64,000 nucleotides of DNA, from NCBI GenBank assembly GCA_913049785.1, contig CAJWXP010000001.1, positions 44,956 to 108,955 of the forward strand, in the 5' to 3' direction. Position numbers and translations under genes: made by a program. The notes below the pieces were generated by a model. The model saw nothing but the letters and a program-made list of their open reading frames with translations. It did no database searches and was not told where the DNA came from. Of the stretch, positions 2,054-64,000 are shown in pieces (within the stretch, counting starts at the first letter, position 1; each line of letters begins with the position of its first letter). This DNA comes from an uncultured Dehalococcoidia bacterium (GTDB lineage Bacteria > Chloroflexota > Dehalococcoidia > Lucifugimonadales > UBA1127).

Positions 2054-2087
2054 AGCACCCTCGCTAAGGCAGCGAGGGTGCTTTTTG
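2054..2087 (+). terminator. Rho-independent terminator
   Basis: Perfect 12-bp stem AGCACCCTCGCT-aaggc-AGCGAGGGTGCT followed by TTTT. Confidence 0.9.
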
Positions 2088-2418
2088 TGGCTTTGGGGGG
2101 CACTGGCACGATGTTAGCCTCAATATCTTGCTTTCCACCGATTAGGGTGAGTACAACCTTAAGGAAATCACACACATTTCACACCTTTATGGAATTATGG
2201 ATTTCAAAGCGCCGTTGACAACTTGTTAATGGAGTGAGAAAGGGGTGAGGCGGCTTCACCGCAAAGAAGTAATCCTTTTCCATAATACGATTCACCCCCT
2301 ATAGCGATGCCGAATCATGCGTGGAGGCGATGTTCAGAGCCTGCTGTAGATATAGGCTGATTGTGTACTGATAAACAAGACATTAATGAGTCAGCCGAAG
2401 ACAGCAGGAGAAAACGAG

Positions 2419-3180
2419 ATGAAGATTTTGACACGGATGGTTGCACTAGAACTGGTACTGGGGGCCACACTGATGGTCACAGTGTCCAGCCTCATGGCCG
2501 ATTCCTCCGTTCAATTCAAGGTCTCTCCCGGCTGGACGCTCATCTCTGTCCCCTTCATCCAGGCAGACCCGGCCATAGACGCGGTCATCCCCGCAGACCA
2601 ACCCATCGACGTAGTGATGGAGTGGGATGCCGAGGCAAGGATGTGGTACGTTGCTTGACGCAATGCCGCAACGGGGTTGTTCGAGGGTGATGTGAAGACC
2701 ATCCGCCCGGACACTGGGTACTTCATCTGGGCAACCGATGCAGCCACACTGAGATGGAAGCAGGCACAACCAGTCCCGGCCAGTTTCCAGGAGCCCACAG
2801 CCACACAGAAAGGGCTGAACCTGATCCCCGTGCTGTACGGCTCACGACCGAGCCCCTGGCCGTTGCTGCCGATGATTACCTGGACGGCGTTGATTGGGTG
2901 AAGGCCTTCACCTTCAGCCCGGCCACCGACAAGTGGACCACGGTGAAGCGTGGACAGACCATAGAGGTCGGCTACGGCTTCGATAACCCCTGCACCGGGG
3001 CGCCGGTAGTGCCCGCCCAACGTAGAAGCCGGCACGGAGCCCTGCCAGGCGACCGAGTACGGAGACCGGTACTTCAACAAGGTCTTCACACCCCTGGACA
3101 TCGTAGAGATTAAGGCACCACTGTTCTTGGGGAACGCCTACTGGCTCCACACCATGGATGACGGAGTAATCGTCCGATAA
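2419..3180 (+). pseudogene. Secreted/exported protein with signal peptide, multiply interrupted
   Basis: RBS AGGAG then MKILTRMVALELVLGATLMVTVSSLMA signal-like start; in-frame TGA at 2656-2658; continuation to LNLIPVLYGS, then a frame change near 2838 (VDWVKAFTFSPATDKWTTVKRGQTIEVGYGF) and another near 3050 ending YFNKVFTPLDIVEIKAPLFLGNAYWLHTMDDGVIVR*. Confidence 0.7.
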
Positions 3181-3198
3181 CCGAACAAGCTAACGGAA

Positions 3199-3234
3199 AA
3201 GAACCCTCTCATCAAGTGAGAGGGTTCTTTTTTA
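3199..3234. terminator. Rho-independent terminator, probably bidirectional between convergent genes
   Basis: AAGAACCCTCTCA-tcaa-GTGAGAGGGTTCTTTTTT hairpin. Confidence 0.9.
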
Positions 3235-3253
3235 TGTTTCGTATCAGCGGGTA

Positions 3254-4567
3254 TCAGGCCGGGGTGTACTCCGGGGAGTAGTTCGCCTTCTGGTAGAACT
3301 CCTTGTGCAAGGCAGTTCGCCAATCAACATCGGACGGGAGGATCTTTTCGATAGCACGCAGGTCATAGATGTTGGTACCTAGACCTGGAGGGTCGCCGCC
3401 GTCCTCTACTATCCTTGCGGCCTCCAGCATCATCTTTCGGGTCATGATGATGGCTCTGTCTGTGGTGCCAAGGTGCTCCTGCGTACGGTCACAGATGGTG
3501 CCCATGCTCTCCTGCACGGCTCTGTCCTGGGTATTGATGCCGTTTATTCCCGTGAAATTCTTGGTGCGCTGCATCTCACGGTCAAGGAAGTAGTCGTTTC
3601 CAGCGTTGGCAATGGAGCGGAAGCCGTTTGCCGGGTCAATGTCCTTGTGCATCTCGTTGCCGCTGCCCTCTTGCTGCCGCTCGCCCTCCGTCAGCGGGAC
3701 ATCAGTGAAGCTGTAGGTGAAGTTCCAAACCATGGTGTTCTCATCGTCGACAGGCACCCATGCGTGGCCTGAGATGATGGGCTTCACATCGCCGCGGCCC
3801 GTTATCACTGAACCCAGTTGGGCCGCTCGTAGCTGATAGAAAGGCATGATGAAGTGGTATCCGCGCACGAAGTTGCCGCCATCGTCAGGCATCGGCCGAA
3901 TACCAGCGTAGGTGTAACCGAAATCGGTCGGCTGCACTTCAAGGGTGGCCGCTGCCGACTTCTTGATGGCCTCATCACGGGCCGAGATGCCGAACCCTGC
4001 CATCCTTCGATGGAGGAAGGTGCTGTGGACGGTGTCTATGCCGCCTTCCAACCCCTGAAGCCAACCGCAGGGCTGCAGGATTTTGTTCACGCCTCTGTGT
4101 GTGTCTGGCACCTGGGTCCACTCCATCTTAGGTAGTGGAGGAACGGACTCCTTGGGCCCCATGTAGAGCCAGATAACCTCGCCGAACTCAGCGGTCTGGT
4201 ACGCGATGATCTTCACCTTGTCTTTGAAGTTACTTTCTGCGGGTTCTGAGGGCATATCGACGCAGTTGCCTTCGATATCGAACTTCCAGCCGTGGTAAAC
4301 GCATCGCAGCCCACATTCCTCGTTGCGACCGAAGAATAAGCTTGCTCGACGATGCGGGCAGTATTTGTCGAGGACGCCCACGTTGCCATCGGTATCGCGA
4401 AAGGCGACCATGTCCTCGCCCAGAAGGCGCAGTCGAATCGGTGGGCAATCGGCTTCCGGGAGCTCCCAGGAGAGCATGGCAGGCATCCAGTATCGCCGGA
4501 ACAGGTTTCCGATAGGTGTGCCCGGCCCTACGTTGGCCAGTCGCTCGTTCTCTTCAGGTGTCAGCAT
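3254..4567 (-). CDS. Rieske [2Fe-2S] aromatic ring-hydroxylating dioxygenase alpha subunit (phthalate 4,5-dioxygenase-like)
   Basis: Rieske motif CPHRRASLFFGRNEECGLRCVYHGWKFD and mononuclear-iron region DTVHSTFLH; start chosen at MLTPEENERLANVGPGTPIGNLFRRYW. Confidence 0.9.
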   Translation of the reverse strand: MLTPEENERLANVGPGTPIGNLFRRYWMPAMLSWELPEADCPPIRLRLLGEDMVAFRDTDGNVGVLDKYCPHRRASLFFGRNEECGLRCVYHGWKFDIEGNCVDMPSEPAESNFKDKVKIIAYQTAEFGEVIWLYMGPKESVPPLPKMEWTQVPDTHRGVNKILQPCGWLQGLEGGIDTVHSTFLHRRMAGFGISARDEAIKKSAAATLEVQPTDFGYTYAGIRPMPDDGGNFVRGYHFIMPFYQLRAAQLGSVITGRGDVKPIISGHAWVPVDDENTMVWNFTYSFTDVPLTEGERQQEGSGNEMHKDIDPANGFRSIANAGNDYFLDREMQRTKNFTGINGINTQDRAVQESMGTICDRTQEHLGTTDRAIIMTRKMMLEAARIVEDGGDPPGLGTNIYDLRAIEKILPSDVDWRTALHKEFYQKANYSPEYTPA

Positions 4568-4667
4568 ATTTAGCCTCCCCAGGGCGAGCCCTGGACTCAT
4601 GTATCTGTGGGGCAGCAATGTAGCGCTGGCCACATTCTACACCACGTGAACCAACGCTGAACCGGCG

Positions 4668-5513
4668 TTACCCGATGGACTTTGCGTACGTGTCCAACAG
4701 GGGTAGCACGACGTCTCTCTCTGCAGCGGGAAGCGAGAATATTGCCCGCTCGACACCAGCCCCGCCGAGTCGTGCGATGTTCGCTTCGTCTGGTTGAGCA
4801 CTGAACACAGATATAGAGATGGATGAGGGGTCACGGCCAGCCTCAGCCGTACGCTGCTTCAGGATTGCGATCTTCTCCGGCAGGTCTGGGCCTTCTGAGG
4901 GTCTACCCTGGATGGGCATCCAGCCATCGCAGAACTCTATGACACGATCGAAGGTGGTGGGGCCATCGCCTCCCATGATGACAGGCGGGTGGGGCTGCTG
5001 CAGCGGCTTGGGATACGCCCATATCTTATCGAAATCCACGAAGTCTCCGTGGAACTCCACCTATTCCTGGGTCCATATCTCCTTCATGGCCAATACCTTC
5101 TCTCGGAGCTGCCGGAACCTGGCCTTGAATGCGGTGTCGTGGTTCTCGATCTCCTCCACATTCCAACCCCCTCCGATGCCGAAGAGGAACCGGCCGCCGG
5201 AGAGTCGGTCGAGGCTGGCGATCTGTTTTGCCAACGTTAGCGGGTCATGCTGGATGATGAGGCAGATGCCTGTGGCAAGCTTCAGCGTGGTGGTAACGGC
5301 TGCCGCCGCTGTGAGGGCCACAAACGGGTCGTAGGTGTGCCAGTAATCCCTTGGCAGGTCCGGTCCACCAGGCCACGGCGTGTTGTGACTGGCGGGGATG
5401 TGCGTGTGCTCTGGCGACCAGTACGACTCGAATCCGCGATCCTCTAGTTCCTTTGCCAGCTCGTCCGGAAGTATGGCGTAGTCCGTTGGGAACATGGTTA
5501 CTCCGAAATCCAT
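4668..5513 (-). pseudogene. LLM-class (luciferase-like) F420/FMN-dependent oxidoreductase interrupted by in-frame TAG
   Basis: ORFs 5061-5513 and 4668-5060 are adjacent in the same frame, separated by TAG at 5061-5063: ...VLAMKEIWTQE*VEFHGDFVDFDKIWAYPKPLQQPHPPVIMGG, continuous LLM-family sequence. Confidence 0.8.
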
Positions 5514-39919: not shown

Positions 39920-40266
39920 TGCGAAGGTAGTAGCTTCTGTCTTATTCACCGTGTGACCTCGTGGGGCTTCAAATCGCTCAATGCCTACTATTCAGTGTGG
40001 CTTTGCGCTCGCGAAACTCTATTTCTCCAAAGTTTCCCACGGGCATCCTGCCCAGAACACCTGTCGATTGGTTTCAAATAAATTTCCAACAAATTTCCCC
40101 AACTCGAAATCAATCGACTGGTTGTTCTCGACTAAAACCGCCCAGATCCATCCATGAAGCCATTGCGCCCAGGGTTTGGTAGAATGCCGTTGCCGTTCCT
40201 CCATAAGTCGTCGCGCATGTTGGCGCTCCAGACGACCGTAGCTTGTTGGTCAGGGGTGTGCAGGCT

Positions 40267-41707
40267 GTGAACGATTCACGCATCAAGATTCATCCGCTTT
40301 TATGGATCATCATCGGGGCCGTTACCACTGTCGCCGTCGCATGGTCTGCCTACCTCATCGCCCAACTGGAATGGGACGTGGAACTCGTGACGGCAACCGC
40401 GCTCCTAGCCTCGTTAGTCATGCTGGCGTGCCTGTTCCCCATCCCTGTGGCGCCAAGGGTCAAGGCTGGGATGACCACCGCCCCATTGTTCGCAGCCGCC
40501 ATCGTGCTGGGACCCGGGTGTGCCGTTCTCGCAGCTGTGGTCGGTGGAGCAGGCTACCAGGTGGCGCTACGGTTCCGCTCACCTGGCGTGCGGATGCCCT
40601 GATACCAGACCGTTTTCAACCTATCTGAGACGACGCTTTCAACAGGGATGGCCGCGTTCATCTTCGACCAGATAGCAGACGGGAGCCTGGTCAGTGCATC
40701 CATCCTTTTGGCAGCCACAGCTATGTACGTGATCAACAGTGGTCTGGTTTCTCTGATTGCAGCAACCCAATTACGACAAAACCCCGTCAGATTTTGGTTG
40801 GTCGGTACTAGAGAGGGTGGCCCCCCCTGAACTGAGTCTGTTCGCCTTTGGGTACCTGGGTGCGTTGGCGTATGAGGCGAATGCTCTGGCTATAGTAGCT
40901 GTGCTCTTGCCGGTATTCATTGTGTATCACGCGTTCTTTAAGCTAACGGCTACCAACACGCAATTGGAGCAGGCGCTAAGCAGCGTACAGACCCTTCAAG
41001 GGCAACTCCTGCAAAACGCCAAGCTGGCCACGCTAGGAACCCTTACCCTCGACCTGGCGCATCAGTTGAAGAACCCATTGTTCATCACCGGCCAGCTGGA
41101 AAACCTCATGTGGAAGATACCCAAAGACGACCCTGTCGCAATTCAGATGGACGAGGCGCTCCAGGCTGCCTGGCGCACAAACCAGCTCATCGAAGCGTTC
41201 CTGAACGAAGCACAGCAGCGTTGGTCTCCCATGAACATCGTCACGCTATTGAATGAAGCTGTTTCATCGGCAATGGCGAAGACCAACAAGCCGGTTTCCA
41301 TAGAGCGGGACTACTCAGCGGATGAAGCTGAAGCAGAGGGCATGCCCACGTTGATGAGAGAGGCCCTGATGAACCTGGTAGTCAATGCCGTTGATGCTGT
41401 GCCAGATGGCGGAACGGTTGGGGTATCAATTGAAAGAGACGCTCAAAAGGGAGTTGTCATAACCATCAGCGACAACGGCTCTGGAATCCCTGAGGAACAG
41501 ATGGAACACCTATTTGAGCCGTTCTGGACGTCAAAAGAGGATGGAACGGGGATAGGACTGTTCTCTGCGAAGCACATAGTTGAACTGCATCAGGGGCAGC
41601 TGAGTGTGGTTAGTCATGAGGGGCTGGGAACGCGGGTGGTTGTGACCTTACCTATCACGGGCCTTCAGGGGGAACGTATTGATATCCCAACCCCCGGACG
41701 TTCCTGA
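40267..41707 (+). pseudogene. Membrane sensor histidine kinase interrupted by in-frame TGA and a homopolymer frameshift
   Basis: GTG start candidate VNDSRIKIHPLLW; TGA at 40600-40602 (SPGVRMP*YQTVFNLSETTLSTG); 7-C run at 40821-40827 where one fewer C restores GTREGGPPELSLFAFGYLG; intact HisKA/HATPase downstream (DLAHQLKNPLFITGQLENL, NLVVNAVDAVPDGG, GSGIPEEQMEHLFEPFWTSKEDGTGIGL). Confidence 0.85.
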
Positions 41708-43156: not shown

Positions 43157-45049
43157 CTACAACTGCTCTTTGATGTTCTGAGCAAGAGCCAATGTCATCC
43201 CCTGAACTGTGGTCAACTCTTCCATGGTTGCTTCACGTATCCCCTGAACGCTCCCAAATCGTTGGATCAACAGCTTCCGCCTCTTTGGCCCTATCCCCTG
43301 CACCGTGTCTAAGCCAGATTGTGTCTGTCGCTTTGACCGAAGCTTTTGGTGGTAGGTGATGGCGAACCGGTGGGCTTCATCGCGAACGCGCTGCACCAGG
43401 AACAGCCCCTGAGAGTTGCGAGGCAGGATCATAGGGTCAGGACTGTGGGGGACAAAGACTTCTTCTTCCTGTTTGGCCAGGGAGGCTAACGGTACCTGGT
43501 CTGTAGATATCCCCATCTCCATGAAAACAGTCTGCACAGCTGAAAGGTGGCCTTTGCCGCCATCGATGAGAATCAGGTCAGGAACGTTTTCCCACGAGTC
43601 GTCTGCGGGCTTTGTTTCTGATTCCGGGGTCTCGCCTTCCTGCTTGGCCATACGCTTAAAGCGGCGTTGCAGCATTTCCTTCATCATTGCGAAGTCGTCG
43701 GGCCCGTCCACCGTTTTGATCTTGAACCTGCGGTAGTGCTGCTTGCTAGGGCTCCCGTTCTGGAACACCACCATGCTGCCTACAGCGTCTGTGCCGCTGA
43801 TGTTGGAGATGTCATAGCACTCGATGCGGTTCGGCAGCCGTGGGAGGCTCAGGGCTTCCTGAACCTCGGCTAGGGCCGTATCGAGTGCGCCCTGGCCTGC
43901 GAGCCTTCGGATCCTGGACATGCTCAGGCCTTGGGCCGCGTTCTCCGCCACAAGGGACACCAGCTTCCGCTTCTCGCCTCGCACGGGGATGTGGAGAGAG
44001 ACAGGCCCGCCTCGTCGCGAAGAGAGCCACTCCGTCAGCAGAGGAGTCTCATCAGCTTCATGTTGAATGACCACCAGGGGAGGGACGAAGGAAGCGCGAT
44101 CATAAAACTGCTGAATGAAGGTGCCAATGACCTTGCCCTCTTCTTCATCTTGAACGCCGTCCATAATGAAGTGGTCCCGTCCTACCAGCTTCCCCTTCCG
44201 GATGAAGAACGCCTCTACCCACGCCTCGTTGCGTTCCTGGGCCATTGCCACCACATCCATGTCCTGGCTGCGTAGTGAGACCATCTTCTGCTCTTCATTG
44301 ACCCGCTCTATCGCCTGCATCTGATCCCGTATGCGCGCTGCCTGCTCAAACTCCAGGTTTTCAGCGGCGCTGGCCATGCGACGATTAAGTTGCCTGACAA
44401 CGTCTCCGGTCTTCCCTTCAAGGAACATCAAGACCTGCTCTATCACCTCTCGATAACTCGTCTGGTCGGCGTATCCCACACAGGGCGCTACACACCGATG
44501 TATGTAGTACTCCAGGCAAGGACGAGCGTCCGTGCCGGTGATGGTTTTGGTGCAGGACCGATAGGGGAAGAGCTTCTTCAGTAGGTCTAGCGTCTTGCGA
44601 ATAGAGCCGGTGCTGGCGAAGGGTCCGAAGTATCGAGCGCCATCGTTCAGTACTCTGCGCGTGAAGTAGACCTGTGGGAACTCCTCCCTGGGGTCGATCT
44701 TGATGTAAGGGTAGGTCTTATCGTCACGGAGTCGTGTGTTGTAGGGGGGGCGATGACGCTTAATGAGGGTGTTTTCCAGGATGAGCGCTTCGCTCTCAGA
44801 ATCCGTCACCACAAACTCGAAATCGACTGCCTGCTGCATCAGTCGCCGCGTCTTCGGCATCATGCCATAGGGTGTTCCGAAGTAGGACCGGAGGCGGTTG
44901 CGGAGGTTGGCAGCCTTGCCCACATACAGGAATCTACTGGATGTGTCCTTGAAGAGGTAAACACCCGGGCGAAGGGGTACGGAAGGCAAGCGCTCTCGCA
45001 TCTCAGCGTTTTCTTTGGTCTGGTTATCGGTAGTTATAGCCATCTTCAT
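43157..45049 (-). CDS. uvrC: Excinuclease ABC subunit C
   Basis: LPSVPLRPGVYLFKDTSSRFLYVGKAANLRNRLRSYF (GIY-YIG), IECYDISNISGTDAVGSMVVFQNGSPSKQHYRRFKIK, LILIDGGKGHLSA. Confidence 0.97.
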   Translation of the reverse strand: MKMAITTDNQTKENAEMRERLPSVPLRPGVYLFKDTSSRFLYVGKAANLRNRLRSYFGTPYGMMPKTRRLMQQAVDFEFVVTDSESEALILENTLIKRHRPPYNTRLRDDKTYPYIKIDPREEFPQVYFTRRVLNDGARYFGPFASTGSIRKTLDLLKKLFPYRSCTKTITGTDARPCLEYYIHRCVAPCVGYADQTSYREVIEQVLMFLEGKTGDVVRQLNRRMASAAENLEFEQAARIRDQMQAIERVNEEQKMVSLRSQDMDVVAMAQERNEAWVEAFFIRKGKLVGRDHFIMDGVQDEEEGKVIGTFIQQFYDRASFVPPLVVIQHEADETPLLTEWLSSRRGGPVSLHIPVRGEKRKLVSLVAENAAQGLSMSRIRRLAGQGALDTALAEVQEALSLPRLPNRIECYDISNISGTDAVGSMVVFQNGSPSKQHYRRFKIKTVDGPDDFAMMKEMLQRRFKRMAKQEGETPESETKPADDSWENVPDLILIDGGKGHLSAVQTVFMEMGISTDQVPLASLAKQEEEVFVPHSPDPMILPRNSQGLFLVQRVRDEAHRFAITYHQKLRSKRQTQSGLDTVQGIGPKRRKLLIQRFGSVQGIREATMEELTTVQGMTLALAQNIKEQL

Positions 45050-60268: not shown

Positions 60269-60862
60269 TTACCCTGCGGTCGCCACGCGGCATAGGCCGA
60301 TGATGTAGTCGATCTGCTGCTGATGACCGAACTCGTGGGTGATCATTGAGCGTAGGTAACTGGCGTTCGTCCAGTCAGGGCGCTCAGCGTTCGGTACTTC
60401 TTCAAGCTTGCTTTCATCCAGTCCCTTCACGATGGCCAGGGTTCGCTTCCGGACAGCCTCACCGTAGGTCAGGAGTTCTGACAGCGGTGGCACGTTGAAG
60501 ATGCCGACTTCCTCTATCGTCCAACTGTTGCCGGTGGTCATGGATGCACGGTCGCCGGTAATGGTTGATGGCAGCGTCCACTTGTCGCTCCACCCGTCGG
60601 CCTGGTGGGTCTCCTGCTCGCTGGTGAGTAGGCGCACATACCTGTCTTCCGTACGGAACACGTGCCATAGCAGGAACCCGACGGGGTTGGCTTCAGGTCC
60701 AGCACGCCATGCTAACTGCTCGGCCGTCAGGTCTTTTACCGTGTCCAGGGTGGTGGTGCGCGTCCCGGTGATGACCATGTCAACGAATCCGAGTGTGTTC
60801 ACGATTTCTCCTTGGTGGTGGTTAGGATGGGACGGATGCGGTGATGGATTCTCTTGTTGCAT
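60269..60862 (-). CDS. DinB-family protein
   Basis: TLDTVKDLTAEQLAWRAGPEANPVGFLLWHVFRTEDRYVR ... MITHEFGHQQQIDYI. Confidence 0.8.
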   Translation of the reverse strand: MQQENPSPHPSHPNHHQGEIVNTLGFVDMVITGTRTTTLDTVKDLTAEQLAWRAGPEANPVGFLLWHVFRTEDRYVRLLTSEQETHQADGWSDKWTLPSTITGDRASMTTGNSWTIEEVGIFNVPPLSELLTYGEAVRKRTLAIVKGLDESKLEEVPNAERPDWTNASYLRSMITHEFGHQQQIDYIIGLCRVATAG

Positions 60863-62273: not shown

Positions 62274-62891
62274 CTAGGACTTCCGTTTGTTGATCGTGCC
62301 ATCCCACTCACTCAGGGGCGCACACTGCCAGTACCAGTTGTCCTCTAGAAGACCCCAATTGGGTAACCATGTTCGCCCGTTTGCCCACAGGAGGGTCTGC
62401 CACTGGTCGATATCGGTGGGTGCCCACGGGAAGAGTCGGTCAACGACCCGGGCGGACAGATCGGCTAACGGCTGAAAAGCGACCCCAAGTCCGGCTGTTA
62501 TATCTGCAGTGTGGATCAGAATCTCGTCGCATCCCATAGCGGCGAAACCGCTGGGGTCTGCCATACCAGCCGGATGGAAGCCTCGCATAGATGATGGCGA
62601 CGACTCAACCACACGCGCAAGGATCATAGCGTTCGCCTTCAGCAAGAGCAGGAGGTCAGCGATCGTGAGTTGGTCGCTCATCGCCTGAGGCCTCTGAATC
62701 CTCTCGGCAGCAGAAATGGCCAGGCTGGAATAGTAGAAGGACAGGCCGGTCGAGAGGTGCTCAAGGGTCTGACGGCAAGACCATTCCAACGTGCCTGCTT
62801 TCACGGACCAATCATTATCCACTGTAGGAGCTAAGGCGTTGTAGGCGGCCTCCACAGCGGCTATGACATCGGTGTGGTCTAGTTCTCTCAT
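62274..62891 (-). CDS. Maleylpyruvate isomerase N-terminal / DinB-like family protein
   Basis: [51 protein letters not shown]. Confidence 0.75.
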
Positions 62892-63092
62892 AGGGGTGCC
62901 CTTTCGGTAAGATCAGAGGGCTATGGTACCACGCGGATTACCGGCACCAAGGTGCGGTGCCCGTCGTGGCCGTGTGCGGAGATTGACAAGCCCAAATGCC
63001 AGCGGTACGCTGCGACCACTTTACTGGCGTCCTGTTATCGCACAGGAGCCGCATAAAGAGAGTCCTGTTATGGATAACGAAAGGGGGAGAGG

Positions 63093-63767
63093 ATGGCTTG
63101 GATCAAGACGATCACAGACGAAGAGGCCAAGGAGCTTGGCGGAGAATACGAAGAGGCTTTTGCTAAGGTGCGTGAGGTGACCAACTCTGATAGGGCTGGT
63201 GGAGGGCCTCCTGGGCTTTCCAGCTTAAATCCGTATTCAATGATGCACGCAAAAGAGTTCATGCAGCACATCATGCGCGGCCCATCTGGGGTTACAACCC
63301 AACAGCGGGAAATGGTGGCAACTGTCACCTCACAAGTCAACAACTGCAAGTACTGAGCCGTTGCACACGCAGGGGCCCTGCGTAGAGAAGGTGCAGACGA
63401 CTTGATTGCTGAGAATATCCAGAACGATTGGCGGAAGGCCGACCTTACAGAAGCGGAATACGCGATGTTGGAATGGACTGAGAAGATCTCTCTGACTCCG
63501 GCAATGTGCACCGAGGAAGATGTTCAAAAGATGCGGGACGTTGGTTGGGCGGAGCGGGATATCGTTGATATTGCCAACGTCTGTGCCTACTTCAACTTCA
63601 GGGTCAGGCTCGTTGATAGCCTGGGATTGGAGTTGGGTGAGGCGATGGTGGAATACGCTCTAGAGCATCGGGAGCATGCTGCGGAACTGGCTGCAGAGCG
63701 AGGTTCGGCAGTGCCCATAGATGCATGGGGTTTGACTCAGAAGGAAACAGCAACAGCCAGGCACTAG
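63093..63767 (+). CDS. AhpD-like / carboxymuconolactone decarboxylase-family peroxidase-related protein; candidate selenoprotein with CXXU motif (in-frame TGA at 63354-63356)
   Basis: MAWIKTITDEEAKELGGEYEEAFAKVREV...QREMVATVTSQVNNCKY[TGA]AVAHAGALRREGADDLIAENIQNDWRKADLTEAEYAMLEWTEKISLTPAMCTEEDVQKMRDVGWAERDIVDIANVCAYFNFRVRLVDSLGLELGEAM...; both halves are in the same frame. Confidence 0.85.
63363..63394 (+). promoter_or_regulatory. Candidate bacterial SECIS hairpin
   Basis: GCAC-ACGCAGG-ggc-CCTGCGT-agagaag-GTGC: 7-bp perfect upper stem, 3-nt loop starting GG, loop begins 17 nt after the TGA. Confidence 0.6.
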
Positions 63768-63781
63768 AATCAGGACTTGGG

Positions 63782-63815
63782 AAAAGGGCCTTCCCATTAT
63801 GGGGAGGCCCTTTTC
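63782..63815 (+). terminator. Rho-independent terminator
   Basis: AAAAGGGCCTtCCC...GGGGAGGCCCTTTTC hairpin shortly after the AhpD-like stop codon. Confidence 0.8.
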
Positions 63816-63899
63816 TATTCCACGAATCCCCTCGTTGACGCACTGTTGCGCCACTTGTACGCTAGGCCCGGTTCCCACATCAATTAATGGAGTACACAC

Positions 63900-64000
63900 A
63901 TGGCGAAAATGATCTACCAAGTGCGCCTTATCATCAAACCCGAGTACGAGAAAGAGTTCAACGAGTGGTACGAGGGCTGGTACATTCCCAAGCTCATGGC
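63900..64000 (+). CDS. Start of a hypothetical protein, truncated by window end
   Basis: ATG then AKMIYQVRLIIKPEYEKEFNEWYEGWYIPKLM open to the window edge. Confidence 0.55.
   Translation, partial: MAKMIYQVRLIIKPEYEKEFNEWYEGWYIPKLM

Follow-up and report, generated by a model that had tools for sequence, protein, structure and literature searches.

The reading frame at 63093–63767 is interrupted by a single TGA

The window (the whole 64,000-nucleotide stretch analysed here, positions 44956–108955 of contig C1 of host genome G000) has a right edge that coincides with the end of its contig. Close to this edge, on the forward strand, one reading frame runs from 63093 up to a TAG at 63765–63767, and the TGA at 63354–63356 is its sole in-frame stop; the read-through frame spans 224 codons with no frameshift and no further stop. 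An earlier, sequence-only reading had described ORFs 63093–63356 and 63402–63767 as lying in one frame with the TGA alone between them, which we confirm, and translation across the TGA reproduced the product that it gave (...VNNCKY-U-AVAHAGALRREG...). Its expectation that the gene would be called in two pieces also stands (annotation under table 11 would give two ORFs). A window-wide scan for in-frame TGA codons, scoring codon usage on both sides, ranked the TGA at 63354 first; no other internal TGA in the 64 kb was convincing.

We assign 63093–63767 (+) to a gene for an AhpD-like (TIGR01926, CMD family) protein of 224 residues, in which the TGA is the predicted Sec88 codon (63354–63356, +). 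The active-site motif codons C85-K-Y-U88-A-V-A-H92 occupy 63345–63368 (+), and the core hairpin of a candidate bacterial SECIS element, identified by folding and covariation, lies at 63367–63383 (+). Immediately upstream of the ATG is a purine-rich stretch resembling a ribosome-binding site (AAAGGGGGAGAGG, 63080–63092, +), and 3′ of the stop codon is a terminator-like inverted repeat (AAAAGGGCC...GGCCCTTTT, 63782–63819, +). The window copy is solitary, unlike its arrayed paralogues (described below), and this repeat suggests that it may be transcribed as a single gene.

The read-through protein belongs to the TIGR01926 family

A single TIGR01926 profile (NCBIfam, peroxidase-related enzyme) covers residues 45–179 of the read-through protein, with U at position 88, and scores 122 bits (cut-off 81.8); both flanks of the TGA are therefore coherent family sequence, as had been noted from the letters alone. 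Since this match spans the TGA without a change of frame, as happens in selenoproteins, it fits a selenoprotein reading. The Pfam CMD profile also matches (38 bits), the paralogues in the same genome score 119–131 bits against TIGR01926, and the read-through protein combines a C-X-X-C/U-X-X-X-H site with a predicted all-helical AhpD fold. Residues C85, U88, H92, G151, and R172 are invariant in an alignment of 41 proteins. Two neighboring assignments were ruled out by score: AhpD proper (TIGR00777, 19.4 bits against a cut-off of 191.95) and the AhpD-related (seleno)protein family NF041238 (51.8 bits against a cut-off of 175).

The TGA occupies one conserved column, replaced by Cys in more distant relatives

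The host genome carries five genes of the TIGR01926 type, each with one TGA, always at the CxxU column. Six matches were found in each of the genus mates G001, G002, and G004, with three to four per genome adjoining one another in arrays, and the close matches among these likewise place a TGA at the CxxU column, including those of G002, whose assembly is one single 2.86-Mb contig. In an alignment of 55 distinct TGA-bearing copies, mostly from across the class, U falls within C..U...H in all 55, so that stops scattered over other positions of the gene in close relatives, which would have spoken against selenocysteine, are not what is found. Cys stands at the TGA column in 16 homologues, 15 of which read C-[LI]-Y-C. 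The proposal that close relatives should share the TGA and more distant ones carry Cys at the same column is thus borne out, and a quick tree requires two changes of the Sec/Cys label. A Sec-type homologue (L072, motif CHYUTEAH) also occurs outside Chloroflexota, on a contig labeled Candidatus Neomarinimicrobiota; its presence there could reflect horizontal transfer between lineages, great age of the family, or a mis-binned contig.

Both sides of the TGA are under purifying selection. Relative to the paralogue L010, dN is 0.35 before and 0.29 after the TGA, with dS saturated; relative to L011, dN and dS are 0.41 and 1.73 before the TGA and 0.36 and 1.53 after it. The branch leading to the window copy is longer than that of the paralogue L068_3915 (0.48 vs 0.13), and this greater length may reflect a divergence in function.

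A covarying hairpin follows the TGA

The hairpin downstream of the TGA, ACGCAGG-(GGC)-CCUGCGU, has a stem of 7 bp that starts 10 nt 3′ of the UGA and a 3-nt loop (GGC, 63374–63376) with G first, placing the loop 17 nt from the UGA; the 50-nt stretch folds with a minimum free energy of -19.1 kcal/mol (z -2.7). The published bSECIS model specifies a loop of 3–9 nt, an upper stem of 4–16 bp, G within the first two loop positions, a distance of 16–37 nt from UGA to loop, and a minimum free energy of at most -7.5 (PMC13188914), and the hairpin satisfies every one of these constraints.

Across 49 distinct sequences, standard pairs fill 96.8% of pair cells, compared with 85.5 ± 1.2% in shuffled controls and 30–58% when the pairing is slid, and cells in which both partners have changed number 44 against 15.4 ± 5.7. 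The alignment used for covariation leaves out L038 and L039, which carry a differing hairpin (AT-rich, about -7 kcal/mol). Individual pairs illustrate the pattern: pair 17/27 occurs as C-G in 29 of these relatives and as G-C in 20, and pair 20/24 as A-U in 22, G-C in 21, and C-G in 3. Several of the compensatory changes are synonymous, with the Leu codon being CTG after GCA and CTC after GGA, and the Phe codon TTT after GAG (with one exception) and TTC after GGG; because these changes fall at synonymous third positions, the pairing is not imposed by the protein alone. At the codon level, the window copy and the paralogue L010 use identical codons for 9 of 9 shared residues within the hairpin region, compared with 42% elsewhere. 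The Cys homologues mostly keep H-G-x-x-L/V-R, use other codons for it, pair poorly, and have no hairpin.

The sequences are related by descent, and the number of phylogenetically independent switches is 1–2 on well-supported branches and 3 on all branches, none of them contradictory; a tree-based test of independence accordingly draws on few events, below what significance needs. A covariance model of the hairpin returned exactly five hits in the host genome, which are the five family genes, and within the window only 63354–63401 was convincing. In Rfam no SECIS family matched, a result of little weight given that the variability of bacterial SECIS elements keeps their coverage poor. The earlier reading had suggested a search for a bacterial SECIS element, and a covarying hairpin that fits the published model follows the UGA.

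The host encodes the machinery for selenocysteine insertion

The host is an uncultured Dehalococcoidia-type Chloroflexota, represented by a draft of 2.15 Mb in 77 contigs (93% complete). All four components whose presence had been proposed as a check were found in this genome: selA (550 bits, cut-off 268), selB (341 bits, cut-off 242), selD (379 bits, cut-off 125), and a tRNA-Sec (72.3 bits, cut-off 47) to which ARAGORN assigns the anticodon tca (UCA). The absence of selB, selC, or selD from a near-complete genome, which would have counted against decoding as Sec, is therefore not observed. The selD gene (L024, contig C35) is itself a selenoprotein gene, with one in-frame TGA in an HCAGU motif. 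In the sample of the class, a strong TGA-bearing match occurred in 25 genomes, of which 21 have selA, compared with 196 of 294 overall, a weakly informative co-occurrence; the other 4, in which selA was not found, are all fragmented assemblies.

UGA 63354 as a predicted selenocysteine codon

Taken together, these observations led us to conclude that the locus is almost certainly one intact gene for a Sec-containing AhpD-like protein (TIGR01926, peroxidase-related, CMD superfamily) with UGA 63354 as its Sec codon. The claim that the host decodes this UGA as Sec is strongly supported, at the level of sequence, by the machinery, the conservation of TGA and Cys at one column, and the covarying hairpin. 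Three other accounts of the TGA (a pseudogene, an assembly error, and a genome-wide reassignment of UGA) were rejected on the conserved TGA, the covarying hairpin, purifying selection, and the TGA scan. That the TGA is a real stop, left by a nonsense mutation in a pseudogene or separating two truncated genes, would agree with the two ORFs of table-11 annotation, with the greater divergence of the window copy relative to its close paralogues, and with a plausible decayed gene elsewhere in the same window (40243–41707); it is already contradicted by a TGA at the identical codon in 55 distinct copies, and the otherwise open 224 codons, the selection on both sides, the invariant C, U, and H, and the hairpin make it very unlikely.

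The draft state of the assembly, with its 77 contigs, might invite the thought that a TGC or TGT had become TGA through sequencing or assembly error, but the same TGA recurs at four other loci of this genome and in many independent assemblies (the single 2.86-Mb contig among them), and the hairpin accompanies the TGA copies and is absent from the Cys copies; we regard such an error as vanishingly improbable. Reassignment of UGA throughout the genome to another residue (e.g., Trp, Gly, or Cys) would suit a TGA that falls in a Cys column, yet it is extremely hard to reconcile with a full Sec machinery that includes tRNA-Sec(UCA), with the result of the 64-kb scan, and with covariation 3′ of the TGA.

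Under selenocysteine decoding, SelA and SelD would charge tRNA-Sec(UCA) with Sec, and SelB, bound at the hairpin 10 nt 3′ of the UGA, would deliver Sec-tRNA-Sec at 63354. Sec88 would then replace the second Cys of C-X-X-C-X-X-X-H.

Predicted fold and candidate reaction

Structure prediction of the read-through chain from 41 sequences yields one helical domain (pLDDT 94.8, pTM 0.91), an earlier prediction from five sequences having been poor (pLDDT 52.7). The best PDB matches are the peroxidase-related proteins 6k40 and 3c1l (TM 0.79–0.86 by target), and the spacing of E73-C85-Y87-U88-H92 equals that of the proton relay E36-C48-Y50-C51-H55 in PA0269 (PMC3141380), a protein with weak peroxidase activity (PMC3141380). 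Sec88, together with C85, Y87, H92, and E73, could act in an AhpD-type proton relay, and the product would most likely reduce peroxides or another oxidized small molecule via a Cys-Sec selenenylsulfide cycle. Because the nearest structures are peroxidase-related and the relay spacing is PA0269-like, our best guess is a Sec-Cys peroxidase or thiol-disulfide oxidoreductase; as to the reaction itself, family membership makes peroxidase activity reasonably probable.

The same Sec decoding could instead serve a different reaction, with the protein being a non-peroxidase thiol/selenol reductase of CMD fold that reduces some other compound, e.g., as a reductive dehalogenase comparable to Bmp8 or as an accessory enzyme in aromatic degradation. 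The CMD fold does include the debrominase Bmp8 (structure match 6ohi/6ohj, E 4e-5), and paralogue arrays adjoin a Rieske/LigXa_C oxygenase gene and, in the host genome, an ABM-domain gene as well. Against this, the closest solved relatives by both sequence and fold are peroxidase-related proteins, identity to Bmp8 is only about 16%, and the window copy is not adjacent to oxygenase or ABM-domain genes, such that we consider a non-peroxidase role of either kind rather unlikely.

Arrayed paralogues and their neighborhood

Sec-AhpD genes stand in tandem arrays, two to four genes long, in L057 (G002, 2064–5417), L058 (G004), L059/L069 (G001), and L068 (host genome, 2639–4331). In L057 and L068 the array is immediately preceded by a Rieske/LigXa_C oxygenase gene, and L068 also has a glyoxalase-family gene and an ABM-domain gene nearby. 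Since the arrays of G000 and G002 adjoin this oxygenase gene, their products may have a part in the metabolism of aromatic compounds. A more specific proposal, that the family expanded within the genus by tandem duplication in association with aromatic-ring oxygenases, and that its members act on a specific substrate (such as organic hydroperoxides or halogenated aromatics) and are not general peroxidases, seems doubtful. The arrays point to an amplified selenium-dependent redox function in a poorly known lineage of Chloroflexota. Under the standard code, annotation breaks genes of this type into two pieces and the catalytic residue is lost, which affects five genes in the host genome.

Relationship to known selenoproteins

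CxxU AhpD-like selenoproteins were described from 27 Sargasso Sea sequences in 2005 (PMC1088965) and as "AhpD-like 1 and 2" from GOS data in 2008 (PMC2398784), and a 2026 review lists TIGR01926/CxxU (PMC13188914); the earlier statement that the Cys-to-Sec family is not new is therefore correct. The present locus is a further well-supported member of this known selenoprotein family and not a new kind of system, sharing Sec at the second Cys of CxxC and a SECIS element just 3′ of the UGA; here, the family is found in Dehalococcoidia-type Chloroflexota, with up to six copies per genome, some in tandem. Only the expansion into tandem arrays next to a gene for a Rieske oxygenase is somewhat out of the ordinary, and mildly so. 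By title and abstract, and mostly outside subscription journals, we found no publication on SAR202/Chloroflexota selenoproteins treating this gene set.

The Cys-type TIGR01926 enzymes (3c1l, 6k40, 2pfx, 2oyo, and 2prr) are alike in fold and active-site spacing, but have Cys where the window protein has Sec, and the Cys genes of class relatives compared here lack the hairpin. PA0269 of P. aeruginosa shares the E..C-x-Y/H-C-xxx-H proton relay with equal spacing (PMC3141380); the relay motif is common to PA0269, AhpD of M. tuberculosis, and the window protein, although overall similarity to the former two is low. NF041238 and the present protein are both CxxU AhpD-type selenoproteins, the NF041238 protein being longer.

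Other genes of the window

The gene at 40243–41707 (+) resembles a sensor histidine kinase; its membrane portion (MASE9, 27 bits) is broken by a TGA at 40600 and continues in another frame. No stable hairpin accompanies this TGA (-4.3 kcal/mol), and we read the locus as either gene decay or faulty assembly and not as a selenoprotein gene. Two DinB-like genes are found at 62274–62891 (-) and 60269–60862 (-); one of the pair weakly matches the mycothiol-dependent maleylpyruvate isomerase domain family (32 bits, below the cut-off), and the other encodes a DinB_2/mycothiol-transferase-like protein. At 63900–64000 (+), the start of a gene severed by the contig end gives a weak DUF4286 match (20.8 bits, below the cut-off).
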